DNA from: Bradyrhizobium acaciae
GTDB taxonomy: Bacteria > Pseudomonadota > Alphaproteobacteria > Rhizobiales > Xanthobacteraceae
DNA length: 64,000 nt
Assembly (NCBI RefSeq): GCF_020889785.1
Contig: NZ_JACMYK010000020.1
Coordinates: forward strand, 1-64,000
Reading direction: 5' to 3'
Both the position numbers and the translations under genes were made by a program. Of the stretch, positions 3,723-56,861 are shown piece after piece. Below the pieces are notes generated by a model. That model saw nothing but the letters and a program-made list of their open reading frames with translations. It was not told where the DNA came from and ran no database searches. Position 1 is the first letter of the stretch, and the number at the start of each line of letters is the position of its first letter.

Positions 3723-4607
3723 ATGCGAGACAACGAGCAGACGGCCGATCACTACACGAAGCAATGGTCGAGCGACCTGGGCTTCAAGTCGTTCGTTCAG
3801 CAGAATCCTGAAGCAGCGAAGGCGATGCCGAGCAGGCAATTGCCGTGGGCCGGACTGTTCAAGCGTATTCGCGAGCAGGCGTCGGAACGCAAGACAACGG
3901 TATATGATGCTGCTTGCGGATTTGGCGACATCCTCAACCAGCTCACGGCATCGCCGATCCCGGCCCATCTCGACTATGTCGGCGCCGATATTCACGGCGC
4001 GCTGGATACGATCGAGCGGCACGGGATTGCGACGCTGCTAAATCATGACATCACAGGTGAATTGCCGACAGGGCAGAAGTTCGATTTCATCATCTGCCGG
4101 GCCGCGATCCATCATACGCCAGATCCGCGCGCTACATACCAGACTTTGGTGCGGCAACTCGCGCCCGGTGGCACCATTGCAATCACCGCCTACGCAAAGA
4201 AGGCGCCAATGCGTGAAGCCGTCGACGACGCCTTGCGCGCCACGATCATTCCGATGTCAAACGACGAAGCGTTTGCCACGGCGAGCCAGTTGACGGCGCT
4301 TGGACGAGATCTGCAGCGCTCTCAGGGCCAAATCACGATCGAGAATGATTTGCCGTTTCTTGGCATCAAGGCCGGTGCCTATGACATCCAGACCTTCATC
4401 TACAACCACTTCATCAAGTGCTGGCACAATCCGGCGTTCTCGGAGCAGCATTGCGATCTCGTGAACTTTGACTGGTACCATCCGCCCTTCGCGTTCCGGT
4501 ACGAGCGGGATGAGTTACGCGCGTGGGCGGCAGCTTGCGAGCTCGAAATTGTCCGGGAGGCCTCGACCGAGGCGCAGCATTACATGGAATGCCGCTCGTC
4601 GCGCTAA
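3723..4607 (+). CDS. SAM-dependent methyltransferase, class I
   Basis: The product is 294 aa. AAGGAGAGG lies 4-13 bases upstream of the ATG at 3723 and fixes this start. Motif I (VYDAACGFGDIL, about residues 60-71) binds the SAM methionine, and an acidic residue at the end of the next strand (YVGADIH) fits the ribose contact. FDFIICRAAIHHTPDPRATYQTLVRQLAPGGTIAITAY matches motifs IV and post-IV of small-molecule methyltransferases. The C-terminal 100 residues, rich in Trp, Tyr and His, probably form the substrate cap. The substrate cannot be named. The gene stands alone, and a strong hairpin (4720-4749) separates it from the convergent next gene. Confidence 0.8.
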   Translation: MRDNEQTADHYTKQWSSDLGFKSFVQQNPEAAKAMPSRQLPWAGLFKRIREQASERKTTVYDAACGFGDILNQLTASPIPAHLDYVGADIHGALDTIERHGIATLLNHDITGELPTGQKFDFIICRAAIHHTPDPRATYQTLVRQLAPGGTIAITAYAKKAPMREAVDDALRATIIPMSNDEAFATASQLTALGRDLQRSQGQITIENDLPFLGIKAGAYDIQTFIYNHFIKCWHNPAFSEQHCDLVNFDWYHPPFAFRYERDELRAWAAACELEIVREASTEAQHYMECRSSR

Positions 4608-4719
4608 GGCGAACCCGAACAAACGCTGACGAACTCGCCGATCGATTGCGGCGAGCTTGCGTGGTGCCGCATCGGCGCTGCGGAGTTCGGCCAGGACTTC
4701 TCGTACCCCGCAAAAGGTT

Positions 4720-4749
4720 GCGGCCAGGCTTTGGGGGAAGCCTGGCCGC
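4720..4749. terminator. 12-bp perfect hairpin between convergent genes
   Basis: GCGGCCAGGCTT (4720-4731) pairs perfectly with AAGCCTGGCCGC (4738-4749) across a 6-base loop. It sits between the ends of the methyltransferase (+, 4607) and the transglutaminase-like gene (-, 4824), so it could stop transcription from both. No long T run follows on either strand. Confidence 0.5.
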
Positions 4750-4823
4750 GCGCGAACCGGTCTGGGACGGGGAGGGGTGGGGATGTGACCGGGTCGCGAA
4801 CTCGAAAATCCTTGGCTCTCTGC

Positions 4824-5438
4824 TCAGCGCGAGCTTGCGGTTGAAACTGCGGGGCGGTTGTCGCCGAGCGAGACCCACACATTGGGATCGCTCTGCGATT
4901 GCCGCTTGACGAAGCGGTAGCCGGTCTCCGTCCAGGCGACGATGCTCTCGTTCTGGTTATCGAGCACGAACTCACCCTTGTCGGTCTTCACCGTCAGCAC
5001 CGCGTGGCCTTCGCCCTTCTTGTCGCGGACCACGGTGATCAATAGCGCCTCGCGGGGCCAGCCGGCGTCCATCAGCATCTTGCGCTTCAGGAGCACGTAG
5101 TCCTCGCAGTCGCCGTAACCGTCCGAAGGCAACGACCATTTCTCGATCACGCCCCAATGATCCATGTCGGTCATCGGCTTGATGGATTCGTTGACCCACT
5201 TGTTGACCCGCACGAGGTCGCGCCAAGCGGTCTGCGACATAACGATGTCGCGTGGTTGTGTCTTGCCGCCGCGGCACTCGGCCGGATTGTCGGCGCAGAA
5301 CTCGACCCAGCCGATCGGCGAACGTGCGACGTCACCGAGGCTGGCGTAGACCACGTCGCCGGCCTTGGCCGACACGCACGTTGCAAAAAGGATGGCGGCA
5401 ACCGCCAAACCTTTCCCCTGTCCCCTGAAACCAAACAT
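4824..5438 (-). CDS. Exported transglutaminase-like cysteine peptidase (BTLCP family)
   Basis: The product is 204 aa. An N-terminal signal peptide (MFGFRGQGKGLAVAAILFATCVSAKAG) probably ends after AKA. The mature part has the bacterial transglutaminase-like triad: Cys111 in GYGDCEDY, His145 in GEGHAVL and Asp160 in FVLDN. This matches the predicted periplasmic BTLCP family (DUF920) often linked to type I secretion and adhesin processing (LapG is a relative). No LapD- or adhesin-like gene is adjacent here. The ATG at 5438 is preferred over a GTG at 5477 because the signal peptide then starts normally. The upstream region is AT-rich and holds the likely promoter. Confidence 0.85.
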   Translation of the reverse strand: MFGFRGQGKGLAVAAILFATCVSAKAGDVVYASLGDVARSPIGWVEFCADNPAECRGGKTQPRDIVMSQTAWRDLVRVNKWVNESIKPMTDMDHWGVIEKWSLPSDGYGDCEDYVLLKRKMLMDAGWPREALLITVVRDKKGEGHAVLTVKTDKGEFVLDNQNESIVAWTETGYRFVKRQSQSDPNVWVSLGDNRPAVSTASSR

Positions 5439-5699
5439 TGTGGCCCCCGTTCTTTTTGTTGGGACCACGTTTCGCACAAAGCTTTTGCGCCGCCGCTAAG
5501 TACGCGAAGTAGATTTGACGCGAATACTGGTAAAAGCTGCGGCTAATTCGATCTTTACTTGAATCGAATTCGCCTAAAAGTTGAAACAACTGCAATTGAT
5601 TCAAATTTTATGCATTAATACGGAGAACGCTGCGCCAGCGCGGTTTGTTGCGTCAAAAGCGCCGGCCGTTAACCGCCGATTTCACTACGCCAAACGCAC
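5439..5699. other. AT-rich intergenic region upstream of the BTLCP gene
   Basis: With the hairpin at 5700-5735 and the short gap to the next gene, the non-coding stretch is 332 bases. Bases 5540-5625 are clearly AT-richer than their surroundings and probably carry the minus-strand promoter of the BTLCP gene. I see no coding feature. Confidence 0.5.
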
Positions 5700-5770: not shown

Positions 5771-6388
5771 TTACCTCGCGGTAACGCTCTCTTCGAGGGT
5801 TTCCGCTGATTGCTCGTGGACGAACTCGAGCGCGAAGCCTTCCTCGAGATTTCGCACCACGCGGGCCTGCACCCGGCCGAGCATCACGAGCGACTTCAGC
5901 GGCGGGCGGTTCTCCGCGGCAATTGCGGCTCCGGACAAGGAAAGGTCGATGATGCGGCAGGTCATCCGCGTGCCGTCTTCCTGGGTCAGCAGGGCGATCG
6001 GGTTGCGCGGCACGATACGGTCGTGGCGGCGATCCTCGGGCAGATTGAGGATGTCGCGATTGGCGAGCCAGGTGAGCTGGGCGGCGAGCTTGTCGCGCTT
6101 GCGCGCGGTGGCGCCGATCGTCATCGCAAAGCCGTTGTCGATGATCCGGGTGATGCGGCCCTCGACGCGGCCGATATGGTCGAGATAGGCGATCACGCGG
6201 TCGCCGACATTGCCGATGCCCGGCGCCAGCAGCGCGAGGCCGCCCGGCGACATGTTGATAATCTGGCAGGGAAATTCGCGCCGGTCGGGCAGCATGTAGC
6301 GGCCGAGCAGGTGCACCTTGACGCGCTGGAAGCGCCGCCGCTCCTCGGCTGCGGGGACGACGGTAGTTTTCTTCTGTGCAAACGACAT
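5771..6388 (-). CDS. Protein with two PilZ domains
   Basis: The product is about 205 aa. The first PilZ unit has ERRRFQRVKV (about residues 16-25) and NMSPGG (45-50). The second has RRHDRIVPR (120-128) and DLSLSG (148-153). These match the RxxxR and [D/N]xSxxG signatures that bind cyclic di-GMP, and both arginine clusters look intact. PilZ proteins change flagellar, exopolysaccharide or enzyme activity when c-di-GMP rises. No transmembrane segment is present, so it is probably cytoplasmic. I chose the ATG at 6388 (MSFAQKK); the frame also opens at 6406. A GGDEF-EAL protein is encoded at 44.6 kb, but no direct link is visible. Confidence 0.85.
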   Translation of the reverse strand: MSFAQKKTTVVPAAEERRRFQRVKVHLLGRYMLPDRREFPCQIINMSPGGLALLAPGIGNVGDRVIAYLDHIGRVEGRITRIIDNGFAMTIGATARKRDKLAAQLTWLANRDILNLPEDRRHDRIVPRNPIALLTQEDGTRMTCRIIDLSLSGAAIAAENRPPLKSLVMLGRVQARVVRNLEEGFALEFVHEQSAETLEESVTAR

Positions 6389-6456
6389 CACCACAAACCC
6401 GGCCACCGTCCATTCGGAGCCCCGACGACCCTAAGGCTGATAGGGTTAACGGGGCG

Positions 6457-39436: not shown

Positions 39437-39991
39437 CTAGCGGATGCCCTCGTAGACCATCAGGCCGCGCGCGATCGCGAGCTTGCGCAGGGTCCGCGGG
39501 ACGAGCCGTTCCTGGGGATGCAGATAACGCCACGAGGTCAGCACGAGGTCGTGCAGCCTGGTGACGTCGTCCTCGAACGGGGCGAGCAGGCCGGTGAGGC
39601 TCGCCGGCATATGGACGCGGGCGGTGAAGGGCAGCAGCAGCAATTCAAGGTGCGCCTTGGAGCCGGTTTCGGTCGTGGCGGTGACGCCGGCGATGGCCGG
39701 CACGGTCTCTTCGACGACGCAGGTGATGATGTCTTCGATTTCGCCACGGCTTTCGCCGGTGAACAGGGCCGAGAAGCTGCGGTTCTTGAGGTCGCAGCCG
39801 AGCAGGGCGGAGGTCCGGGTGCCGGCGACGCGGAAGGGAAAGCGGGTCTCGCCGTCATAGGACAGCACGAAGATGTCGGACAGCAACTCGCGCACCGCGG
39901 AGGGCTCGAACTCACTCCGGTCAGGTGCACGTGCGGCGCCGCGCTTCGCATTCCAATAGGCGAAGAAGTCGCGGCTGGAGCTGTGTTTCAT
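39437..39991 (-). CDS. PAS_5-domain protein (PF07310 type)
   Basis: The product is 184 aa. The family pattern is clear: FFAYWNAKRGAARAPDRSEFEP, LLSDIFVLSYDGETRFPFRVAGTRTSALLGCDLKNRSFSALF, and a C-terminal WRYLHPQERLVPRTLRKLAIARGLMVYEGIR. PAS_5 proteins are single-domain sensors, common and unexplained in rhizobia. No output domain is attached. It lies about 130 bases upstream of the cyclase gene on the same strand, so both could belong to one signalling unit, although a gap with GC-rich sequence separates them. Confidence 0.85.
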   Translation of the reverse strand: MKHSSSRDFFAYWNAKRGAARAPDRSEFEPSAVRELLSDIFVLSYDGETRFPFRVAGTRTSALLGCDLKNRSFSALFTGESRGEIEDIITCVVEETVPAIAGVTATTETGSKAHLELLLLPFTARVHMPASLTGLLAPFEDDVTRLHDLVLTSWRYLHPQERLVPRTLRKLAIARGLMVYEGIR

Positions 39992-40159
39992 CTAAAGAAC
40001 CTTGCCCGGCGCCGGTCTCGGCGGGACACTTCTGTCCCGGTTTTGCTCAGGCGCCTTCCCTTCTCTGTTGTGCAGGGAAGGCTGTGCAGCGTCCATGCCG
40101 TGGCCGCGGTTTGGGCAGCTTATCGGCAGCTTTGTGTTGTTAACGTAAATTTAACTATG

Positions 40160-40363
40160 TCCTTGGCGCCGGTGCGAGGTCCGAATAGGGTCCACGCGTT
40201 CCCGTTCGCCGGCTGCCCCAAGCACCGGCGTGGTTGATACACAGGTGGCGTCAAACAGTTTGGTCATCGTGCGGGGAGGGGTGGGGATGGTCTCCCGATC
40301 CCTCTGGGGCACGACAAGACCAGCCGATCAGGGAGGGCGTTCTCAGCGCCCTCCCTTTCCTTT
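40160..40363 (+). ncRNA. Candidate structured small RNA ending at a strong terminator
   Basis: The 488-base gap 39992-40479 has no good reading frame but holds a plausible transcription unit. A promoter-like sequence TTGTTAACGTAAATTTAACTATG (about 40137-40159) is the AT-richest spot. After it, CGCCGGTGC (40167-40175) pairs with GCACCGGCG (40222-40230), and TCGTGC/GCACGA with GAGGG/CCCTC form a second interrupted stem (about 40266-40318). A classic terminator follows at 40330-40363. No family (6S, tmRNA, SRP RNA) was recognised. Alternatively the terminator belongs to a longer leader of the rhomboid gene. Confidence 0.4.
40330..40363 (+). terminator. Rho-independent terminator upstream of the rhomboid gene
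   Basis: AGGGAGGGCG (40330-40339) pairs perfectly with CGCCCTCCCT (40347-40356) around the loop TTCTCAG. A T-rich tail, TTCCTTTCTG, follows on the plus strand. No plus-strand protein gene ends nearby, which is the main reason to suspect a small RNA. Confidence 0.75.
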
Positions 40364-40479
40364 CTGTCGATCCCGGCGCCGCGCGACGCCGGCTGTCCGA
40401 TTTCGGGATTGTGCACTTGCACAGCGGTGCGAAAGCCGCCTATCTCTGATTCACAGCCGTATTCGAGGTCGCCGACCCC

Positions 40480-41277
40480 TTGGACTCCCATCCCGAATCC
40501 CCGCTCGCGCCGCCGCCGGAGGCGCCACGCGAGCCGATCCTGACCTTGCCGCCGGCGCTCACCGCCTACGTCGTGCTGATCGCGGTGATCCATCTGCGGG
40601 TGCTGCTGCCACCGGAGATGGAGAACTGGACCATCGATGTCTTCGGCTTCATCCCGAAGCGCTACGATTCGACGCTGCTCGACATCACCTTTCCGGGCGG
40701 GGAGGGTGCCAAGGTCTGGACCTTCGTCACCTATTCGCTGCTGCACGCCAACCTCACCCATATCGGCTTCAACGTGCTGTGGCTGTTGCCGTTCGGCAGC
40801 GCACTGGCACGCCGCTTCGGCGCGGTGCGCTTCTTTGTCTTCATGGCGGTGACGGCGGCCGCCGGCGCGCTCGCACATCTGTTGACCCATGAGCACGCGA
40901 TCGCGCCGATGATCGGCGCGTCGGCTTCGGTGTCGGGAACGATGGCGGCGGCGATCCGCTTCGCCTTCGTGAAGGGCAGCTTCCTGTCGTTCAACCGGGG
41001 CGACGCCGAGGCGGCCGCCAAGGTGCCTGCGCTGTCGCTGTGGCGGGCGCTGCGCAACGGACGGGTGCTCGGCTTCCTGGCGATCTGGTTCGGCGTCAAT
41101 ATCCTGTTCGGCGCCACGTCGCTGTCGCTCGGCGGTGAGGACACGGTTGTCGCCTGGCAGGCTCATATCGGCGGCTTCCTCGCCGGGTTGCTGCTGTTCT
41201 CGTTGTTCGACCCGATCGCGCGCACGCGGGACGATGCTGCAGATGCGTCATCGGTCGATCAGTCGGGGCGCGTCTGA
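40480..41277 (+). CDS. Rhomboid-family intramembrane serine protease
   Basis: The product is 265 aa with six predicted membrane helices. Helix 2 has HANLTHIGFN (His89, His94), the active serine lies in GASASVSG (Ser148), and the partner histidine is His229 in AWQAHIGGFLAG. The usual serine motif is GASG, and here the residue after Ser is Ala, which is tolerated in some members. The N-terminal 25 residues are Pro-rich and cytoplasmic. The start is a TTG at 40480 with GAGG rather far upstream. Substrates are unknown. Confidence 0.85.
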   Translation: MDSHPESPLAPPPEAPREPILTLPPALTAYVVLIAVIHLRVLLPPEMENWTIDVFGFIPKRYDSTLLDITFPGGEGAKVWTFVTYSLLHANLTHIGFNVLWLLPFGSALARRFGAVRFFVFMAVTAAAGALAHLLTHEHAIAPMIGASASVSGTMAAAIRFAFVKGSFLSFNRGDAEAAAKVPALSLWRALRNGRVLGFLAIWFGVNILFGATSLSLGGEDTVVAWQAHIGGFLAGLLLFSLFDPIARTRDDAADASSVDQSGRV

Positions 41278-56795: not shown

Positions 56796-56830
56796 GCTCT
56801 GGTCGGCTTCCCGCCCGCGGCGCTGATCTT

Positions 56831-56861
56831 AACCTGCCGTTAACCATAATTACGGCAGGTT
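56831..56861. promoter_or_regulatory. 10-bp perfect inverted repeat upstream of the transglycosylase gene
   Basis: AACCTGCCGT (56831-56840) pairs with ACGGCAGGTT (56852-56861) around TAACCATAATT. It lies 49 bases before the ATG at 56910 and overlaps the AT-richest point, so an operator or a promoter-proximal hairpin is possible. The loop is AT-only except for CC. Confidence 0.45.

Follow-up and report, generated by a model that had tools for sequence, protein, structure and literature searches.

A conserved small RNA of Bradyrhizobium and its predicted pairing with a 3'UTR loop of a Peptidase_C93 gene

Between a PAS_5 gene and a rhomboid gene of Bradyrhizobium acaciae lies a strong terminator at which no protein gene ends. 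Does it end a small RNA (sRNA) and, if so, with what could this RNA pair? We addressed these questions in a window of 64,000 nucleotides (the whole stretch of DNA that was analysed, to which all positions refer) and in related genomes. The original prediction had placed a structured RNA of about 200 nt at 40130–40363. The feature proved to be real, but its bounds were moved to about 40198–40362, which gives an RNA of about 165 nt with an inferred start. The locus is composed as follows.

39437–39991, minus strand: PAS_5 gene, conserved divergent neighbour (in 19 of the 20 stretches fetched around sRNA hits)
40139–40155, plus strand: TTAA-N7-TTAAC box of CtrA-type consensus, ending 7 nt upstream of the -35
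40163–40168, plus strand: -35-like hexamer TTGGCG, at the same place in 30 loci, mostly as TTGGCG or TTTGCG
40186–40191, plus strand: -10-like hexamer TAGGGT, with a spacer of 17 nt here and of 16–18 nt in the 30 loci
40198–40362, plus strand: predicted small RNA, about 165 nt long with its start placed from the -10, used for the covariance model
40207–40230, plus strand: hairpin 1 (helix 1), with the loop CUCC in many relatives and CCCC here
40238–40258, plus strand: conserved unpaired segment with the core ACAGG..GGC...AAACA (sequences read by eye)
40260–40323, plus strand: hairpin 2 (helices 2–5), including the TCGTGC/GCACGA stem
40272–40288, plus strand: G-rich motif CGGGGAGGGGTGGGGAT on the 5' side of hairpin 2, complement of the loop at 4768–4784 (minus)
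40330–40362, plus strand: intrinsic terminator, helix 6 of the sRNA alignment
40480–41277, plus strand: rhomboid gene, conserved downstream neighbour (in 18 of the 20 fetched stretches)

The start near 40198, and with it the size of about 165 nt, was placed on the basis of the promoter layout (box, -35 and -10). At the other end the terminator, which had been given as 40330–40363 and as free of a protein gene, was recovered as a 12-pair stem (40330–40356) followed by TTCCTTTCTG, and the open reading frames that span it in the ORF list of the window are mechanical ones only. As far as sequence signals go, the locus thus carries a conserved promoter and an intrinsic terminator of its own, as is required of an independently transcribed bacterial sRNA. 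Conservation, covariation and the fixed plan of the promoter strongly support the central proposal that a structured small RNA is encoded here, with a predicted promoter and terminator for itself. A protein-coding region was rejected. The spacing of two conserved landmarks is 19, 20, 21 and 22 nt in 1, 20, 3 and 5 loci, respectively (29 of the 30 loci measured), and because this spacing breaks the frame the locus was judged to be non-coding.

The 20 stretches fetched around sRNA hits comprise 17 from other genera of the family, two from Bradyrhizobium and one from the genome G496. The PAS_5 neighbour protein resembles MopJ weakly, scoring 42.7 bits where the cut-off is 200. The sequence between the box and PAS_5 (40020–40110) contains CGGGACA..TGTCCCG, which resembles a palindrome, and GCAGCGTCCATGCCG. 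Read by eye, both recur in many relatives; this region is probably the control region of PAS_5. In the window the RNA has the same orientation as the rhomboid gene and lies about 120 nt upstream of it, as would a 5' leader or attenuator of that gene. We give this interpretation the least credence of all. The RNA ends in a strong conserved terminator, repeat-like insertions of varying length separate the terminator from the gene in several relatives (by eye), and one locus (L082) keeps the RNA with no rhomboid match in the 3 kb downstream.

From which promoter could the RNA be transcribed? An AT-rich promoter-like site had been noted near 40140. It does lie near a promoter but is itself the TTAA-N7-TTAAC box, not the -35/-10. 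Across the 30 same-genus loci the -10-like hexamer has the consensus TANNNT, and the box, with one mismatch allowed, is present in all 30, always 7 nt before the chosen -35. The two hexamers were picked as the best match to the consensus, so that this promoter survey was not blind. In the other genera a box was found in 74 of 76 loci, the exceptions being L118 and L129. Taking the best match per locus, both TTAA half-sites are perfect in 62 of these 74 loci, 10 have one mismatch, one has two and one has three, and the gap is 7 nt in 64.

The CtrA consensus is TTAA-N7-TTAA, and in most CtrA promoters of Caulobacter it is described as overlapping the -35 (PMC11264516). The sequence found near the sRNA promoter is the one known from CtrA-activated genes, but its position differs from the Caulobacter type, as it lies upstream of the -35 without overlapping it. 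A ctrA gene is present in all eight genomes examined, and in all eight the 700 nt upstream of ctrA are without TTAA-N7-TTAA. In the window the sole other TTAA-N7-TTAA is situated at 56829–56843. Judged by these sequence features, the sRNA promoter is probably of the sigma-70 type and activated through the box. The activator acting there would plausibly be CtrA.

Three hairpins are found in the 30 aligned same-genus RNAs and are backed by compensatory changes. Standard pairs make up 97.6% of the 1,086 cells of the alignment. Changes on both sides occur in 14 of 37 pairs as against 8.8 in shuffles, and none of 500 shuffles reached the observed number; the covariation score was also reached by none of 500. 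For the count of additional pair types, 19 of the 500 shuffles did so. When the partner was slid by 1–3 columns the pairing fell to 44–57%, a control that is favoured by the structure having been derived from the same sequences. The alignment contains 179 G-U cells and 12 A-C cells, and this large excess of G-U in the helices favours the plus strand. Compared with dinucleotide shuffles, folding gave a z of -3.03 for 40130–40363 and of -3.35 for the re-bounded RNA. Single folds of two relatives gave -4.12 (L010) and -2.20 (L027), and both, folded alone, partly differ from the common structure.

Two long-range stems had been proposed for this RNA, together with a comparison of compensatory base changes in relatives. 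This comparison, which supports the three hairpins, upheld one stem and not the other. TCGTGC (40267)/GCACGA (40309) is real and is part of the conserved helix 3 with compensatory changes, whereas CGCCGGTGC (40167)/GCACCGGCG (40222) is not conserved and was rejected, a perfect stem of at least 7 bp being present there in this locus and one other of the 30. The left arm of the rejected stem, 40167–40175, lies inside the -35/spacer region of the promoter. Three genomes of the genus g49 have a longer RNA region. In L121 about 100 nt are added ahead of hairpin 1, after the predicted start; in L115 and L157 the extra sequence lies between hairpin 1 and the ACAGG segment.

Does the RNA belong to a known family? 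Its size and interrupted stem had suggested a 6S-type RNA, and a covariance search with the Rfam 6S models had been recommended. At the gathering threshold Rfam gave no match in the window, in agreement with the earlier statement that no family could be matched, and at E<=10 it gave six weak matches around the sRNA, none of them to 6S. The genome's own 6S RNA is located on another contig (G000:C202:7198-7358, 85 bits). Like the sRNA, 6S RNA (RF00013) is highly structured and measures about 160 nt, but it consists of one long, interrupted hairpin with a central open-promoter-like bubble. The sRNA instead has three separate hairpins. Together with the lack of a 6S match and the 6S RNA found elsewhere, this led to the rejection of a 6S identity.

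From Bradyrhizobium japonicum/diazoefficiens the sRNAs BjsR1-10 and BjrC68, BjrC80, BjrC174 and BjrC1505 are known (PMC5082802, PMC4842269). They are likewise small RNAs of this genus, and RpoD promoters are described for some of them. In the genome G634, which we took as USDA 110, the sRNA would start near 6,114,482 (minus), and this is none of the positions given for BjsR1-10 in Table 1 of PMC5082802. BjrC68 is described as Rfam family RF02353 (PMC5471319), and BjrC80 (PMC9549626) and BjrC1505 (PMC6337395) are reported from Rfam-based scans; Rfam matches to these three were not obtained at the sRNA. The sRNA may be the same as the published BjrC174. By Rfam it is a new family that is not 6S, and it is of a known kind, namely a base-pairing sRNA, perhaps one half of a sponge pair.

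By blastn the region was found in 36 of 60 genomes, i.e. the window's own and 35 others of the genus, and in none of the 24 genomes of other families; 40000–40480 had no match in a plasmid collection. The covariance model built from the 30 sequences matches 261 of 265 Bradyrhizobium genomes, among them all 251 assemblies with a completeness of 90% or more and a contamination of 5% or less, and the four genomes without a match are 70–88% complete. Its presence in every well-assembled genome of the genus that was examined, with no Rfam match, makes this family worth attention. In the family sample the model matches 103 of 296 genomes, which represent 10 of 47 genera (the window's genus and nine others), and in the order sample it hits 11 of 297 genomes, 10 of them inside the family. 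The hit outside the family (G496, E 7e-4) was taken as false, having neither neighbour gene in the 6.2 kb fetched and no box in the displayed sequence. One locus (L068, G098:C23:41000-49200) contains the sRNA twice. The copies are separated by about 2 kb and each carries the G-rich motif; no box is seen within the 90 nt displayed upstream of the second copy.

With what could the RNA pair? Across the 30 same-genus sRNAs the G-rich motif in hairpin 2 is the longest nearly invariant stretch. The conserved sequence CGGGGAGGGGUGGGGAU is complementary, without a mismatch, to a portion of a 24-nt hairpin loop in the 3'UTR of a Peptidase_C93 gene of the same window, where the following features were assigned.

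4707–4800, minus strand: 3'UTR element, a C-rich-loop hairpin followed by a terminator-like hairpin (model R2)
4763–4786, minus strand: 24-nt loop ACAUCCCCACCCCUCCCCGUCCCA, proposed partner of the G-rich motif of the sRNA
4824–5477, minus strand: Peptidase_C93 gene (BTLCP, weakly LapG-like), whose 3'UTR holds the partner loop

Four genomes were searched for the 17-mer. It occurs without mismatch exactly twice, in the sRNA and in the 3'UTR element, in three of them (G000, G634 and G084); G237 has it once without mismatch (element) and once with one mismatch (sRNA). All remaining hits have two mismatches. The two genes lie on opposite strands, 2.6 to 61 kb apart in the genomes with coordinates that were compared, and on different contigs in some assemblies.

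At least 12 consecutive complementary bases were found in 76 of 101 genome pairs, whereas sRNAs shuffled with their doublets kept reach this length in 0.15% of 2,020 comparisons. The successful pairs are 25 of 29 in Bradyrhizobium, 2 of 2 in g30, 2 of 2 in g41, 1 of 3 in g44, 25 of 25 in g49, 13 of 17 in g50, 0 of 14 in g52, 6 of 7 in g64, 1 of 1 in g67 and 1 of 1 in g69. The hits in G264 and G280 of g50 are possibly misplaced model hits and were counted as failures; G324, G222, G130, G293 and G278 were left out of the pairing, and G078 stands outside the table of 101 pairs. The two RNAs thus show the conserved complementarity by which a sponge pair would be recognized in sequence, and this complementarity is lost in g52.

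In several lineages both partners have changed together. The sRNA sequence GGGAAGGGG faces the loop sequence CCCCUUCCC in G279, GGGGGAC faces GUCCCCC in G187, G217 and G231, and GGGGAUGC faces GCAUCCCC in G271. In eight genomes of g49 and g64 the matched change is GUAU/AUAC, with GGGGAUAC in the sRNA and GUAUCCCC in the loop. Uncompensated changes were seen in G035, G202 and G006, and just past the core 12 Bradyrhizobium genomes carry AC in the sRNA opposite a loop that would require GU. When partners were re-dealt among the genomes, the first base past the core matched in 22.0 pairs compared with 26 observed (637 of 5,000), which is not above chance, and the two bases past the core matched in 13.5 compared with 20 of 58 pairs (37 of 5,000). 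Among the 85 pairs with a run of 8 or more bases, the mean duplex energy is -43.8 for own pairs and -42.8 for re-dealt ones (0 of 5,000). All these pairing statistics are uncorrected for the relatedness of the genomes.

A G-rich stretch of this type could also be a protein-binding site or form an RNA G-quadruplex instead of serving as a pairing site. We regard this as very unlikely, and the quadruplex reading is weak. Four runs of at least three G are possible in 27 of the 30 sequences if loops of up to 25 nt are admitted, but with loops of 1–7 nt only 9 of 30 qualify, and both the exact complement and the matched changes are left unexplained.

An exact 14-mer scan agrees in outline with the pairing table. 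Among 27 Bradyrhizobium genomes 15 have two sites, nine have more than two and three have one. In g27, which has no sRNA model hit, 16 of 20 genomes have one site, two have two and two have none. Ten of the 16 listed g52 genomes contain one site and six contain two (G147, G199, G214, G273, G281 and G289); among the matches listed, the extra site could be located in G147.

The genus g52 bears on whether the pairing is all that the RNA does. In 14 of 14 genomes the G-rich motif is lost and the loop is kept, and the promoter, hairpin and segment sequences of the sRNA are retained. That the rest of the RNA persists after loss of the motif argues for other functions as well, and since the CUCC loop and ACAGG..GGC..AAACA survive this loss the sRNA very likely has further targets. 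One may go further and regard the RNA as an ordinary trans-acting sRNA that targets mRNAs at their ribosome-binding sites, using the hairpin 1 loop CUCC together with ACAGG..AAACA. The G-rich motif would then be secondary, and its match to the 3'UTR a side activity that is minor or confined to some lineages. This alternative is rather unlikely, yet it deserves consideration. Besides the retention in g52, it draws on CTCC plus A/C, which 68 of the 74 loci from other genera contain within 142 nt downstream of the promoter (a raw count). It is opposed by the G-rich motif being the longest nearly invariant stretch, with its complement in a conserved loop of the same genomes, and by the window copy, which carries CCCC and not CUCC.

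For the pair in the window a 17-bp duplex of -39.8 kcal/mol and a gain of -15.3 kcal/mol on co-folding were calculated. The cost of opening is 22.3 in the sRNA motif and 0 in the loop. As 38 other sRNAs with the exact 14-nt core have a median opening cost of 11.7 and a maximum of 18.6, the sRNA of the window is harder to open than all of them.

What, then, is the partner? A Peptidase_C93 homolog is present in 30 of 30 chosen genomes (in G294 as a partial frame only), and in all 30 the element is situated shortly 3' of its stop codon. On the mRNA strand the hairpin with the 24-nt C-rich loop is followed by a GC-rich hairpin, and at least four T follow the latter in 26 of 30 genomes (counted from the alignment). 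We read the GC-rich hairpin as a terminator; a scan of 4500–5000 listed neither a promoter-like nor a terminator-like site. In the alignment of the element 99.8% of 660 cells are paired and 7 of 22 pairs show changes on both sides. The wobbles, read on the mRNA strand, are 14 G-U and 0 A-C and therefore fit this (minus) strand.

The second copy of the motif might alternatively belong to a paralogous G-rich RNA on the plus strand at about 4700–4800, both RNAs binding a common target. The two copies do have the same orientation and share one contig in four of four genomes. Nevertheless, this is highly improbable in view of the wobbles, the T runs on the mRNA strand and the lack of a promoter-like site at 4500–5000, and the sister sRNA was dropped because of the position just after the Peptidase_C93 stop codon in 30 of 30 genomes and the wobble evidence.

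The element appears to constitute a conserved RNA element in its own right. Model R2 matches 217 of 296 genomes and 40 of 47 genera of the family. In the order sample it matches 65 of 297 genomes, and 55 of these belong to other families, with mostly weak matches (E 2e-8 to 9e-4). The five best hits outside the family adjoin a Peptidase_C93 homolog of 45–53% identity. Rfam gave no match to the element at gathering and only unrelated weak matches at E<=10. With matches in 40 of 47 genera, as against 10 for the sRNA, the element is by far the more widely distributed of the two and must therefore have a function that does not depend on the sRNA.

Taken together, we rather favour a trans-acting sRNA with its own promoter whose G-rich strand pairs with the loop of the Peptidase_C93 3'UTR. 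The sRNA of about 165 nt would be made from its sigma-70-type promoter, activated through the box and plausibly by CtrA, and its CGGGGAGGGGUGGGGAU strand in hairpin 2 would pair with the open C-rich loop of the 3'UTR hairpin of the LapG-like protease gene. The sequences themselves show the conservation, the structure, the strand, the promoter layout and the conserved complementarity; transcription of both RNAs, their encounter and its outcome are inferred. Two outcomes can be envisaged. First, the stability or expression of the protease mRNA could be changed; second, the sRNA and a 3'UTR-derived RNA with an anti-Shine-Dalgarno-like C-rich loop could sequester each other. The evidence is equally compatible with the protease 3'UTR as target and as sponge partner. 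If the pairing works in the cell, a CtrA-type promoter box would be linked to the message of a LapG-like protease. Having a concrete conserved partner makes the function of the sRNA open to testing by paired mutations.

An sRNA sponge is already known from this bacterial class, namely CrfA of Caulobacter, which is described together with the SisA-D (alphaR8) sRNAs (PMC12559287). CrfA and SisA-D resemble the present pair in that two complementary alphaproteobacterial RNAs are involved, one masking the pairing site of the other. The difference is that CrfA, as described there, pairs with free-standing sRNAs, whereas the proposed partner here is a hairpin that belongs to the mRNA of a protease, in its 3'UTR. 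Hairpin loops with anti-Shine-Dalgarno motifs are described for the rhizobial alphar14/cuckoo RNAs such as NfeR1 (PMC10746234). The loop of the 3'UTR element (CCCCUCCCC) and the CUCC loop of the sRNA are of this type, but the ultraconserved CCUCCUCCC loops of the alphar14/cuckoo RNAs are absent from the alignments of both the sRNA and the element, and neither matches an Rfam family of this type at gathering or at E<=10. CcnA of Caulobacter, like the sRNA, is a CtrA-linked small RNA of the Alphaproteobacteria, the link here being based on the box. It is described as exposing CCCC and pairing with GGGG in the ctrA and gcrA leaders (PMC8959179). A CcnA-like reading was rejected for its opposite polarity, since the present sRNA carries the G-rich strand.

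A more far-reaching proposal is that of a cell-cycle RNA pair, in which a CtrA-driven G-rich sRNA of Bradyrhizobium and its relatives captures an older, order-wide RNA with a C-rich anti-Shine-Dalgarno loop, set free from the 3'UTR of the LapG-like protease gene. We consider this unlikely. If it were true, CtrA activity would be coupled either to adhesion at the cell surface or to a large number of mRNAs simultaneously, and the 3'UTR element would represent a novel family of RNAs in the order.

The Peptidase_C93 protein itself resembles LapG weakly (NF045674 at 35.8 bits, cut-off 320), and its structure match is PDB 4u65, a 'putative cystine protease' (E 1.9e-6). Directly upstream and on the same strand, at 5771–6406 (minus), lies a PilZ-domain gene, and through it the locus may be linked with cyclic di-GMP. 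With a weakly LapG-like protein and an adjoining PilZ gene as its basis, a link of Peptidase_C93 to adhesion is a guess.
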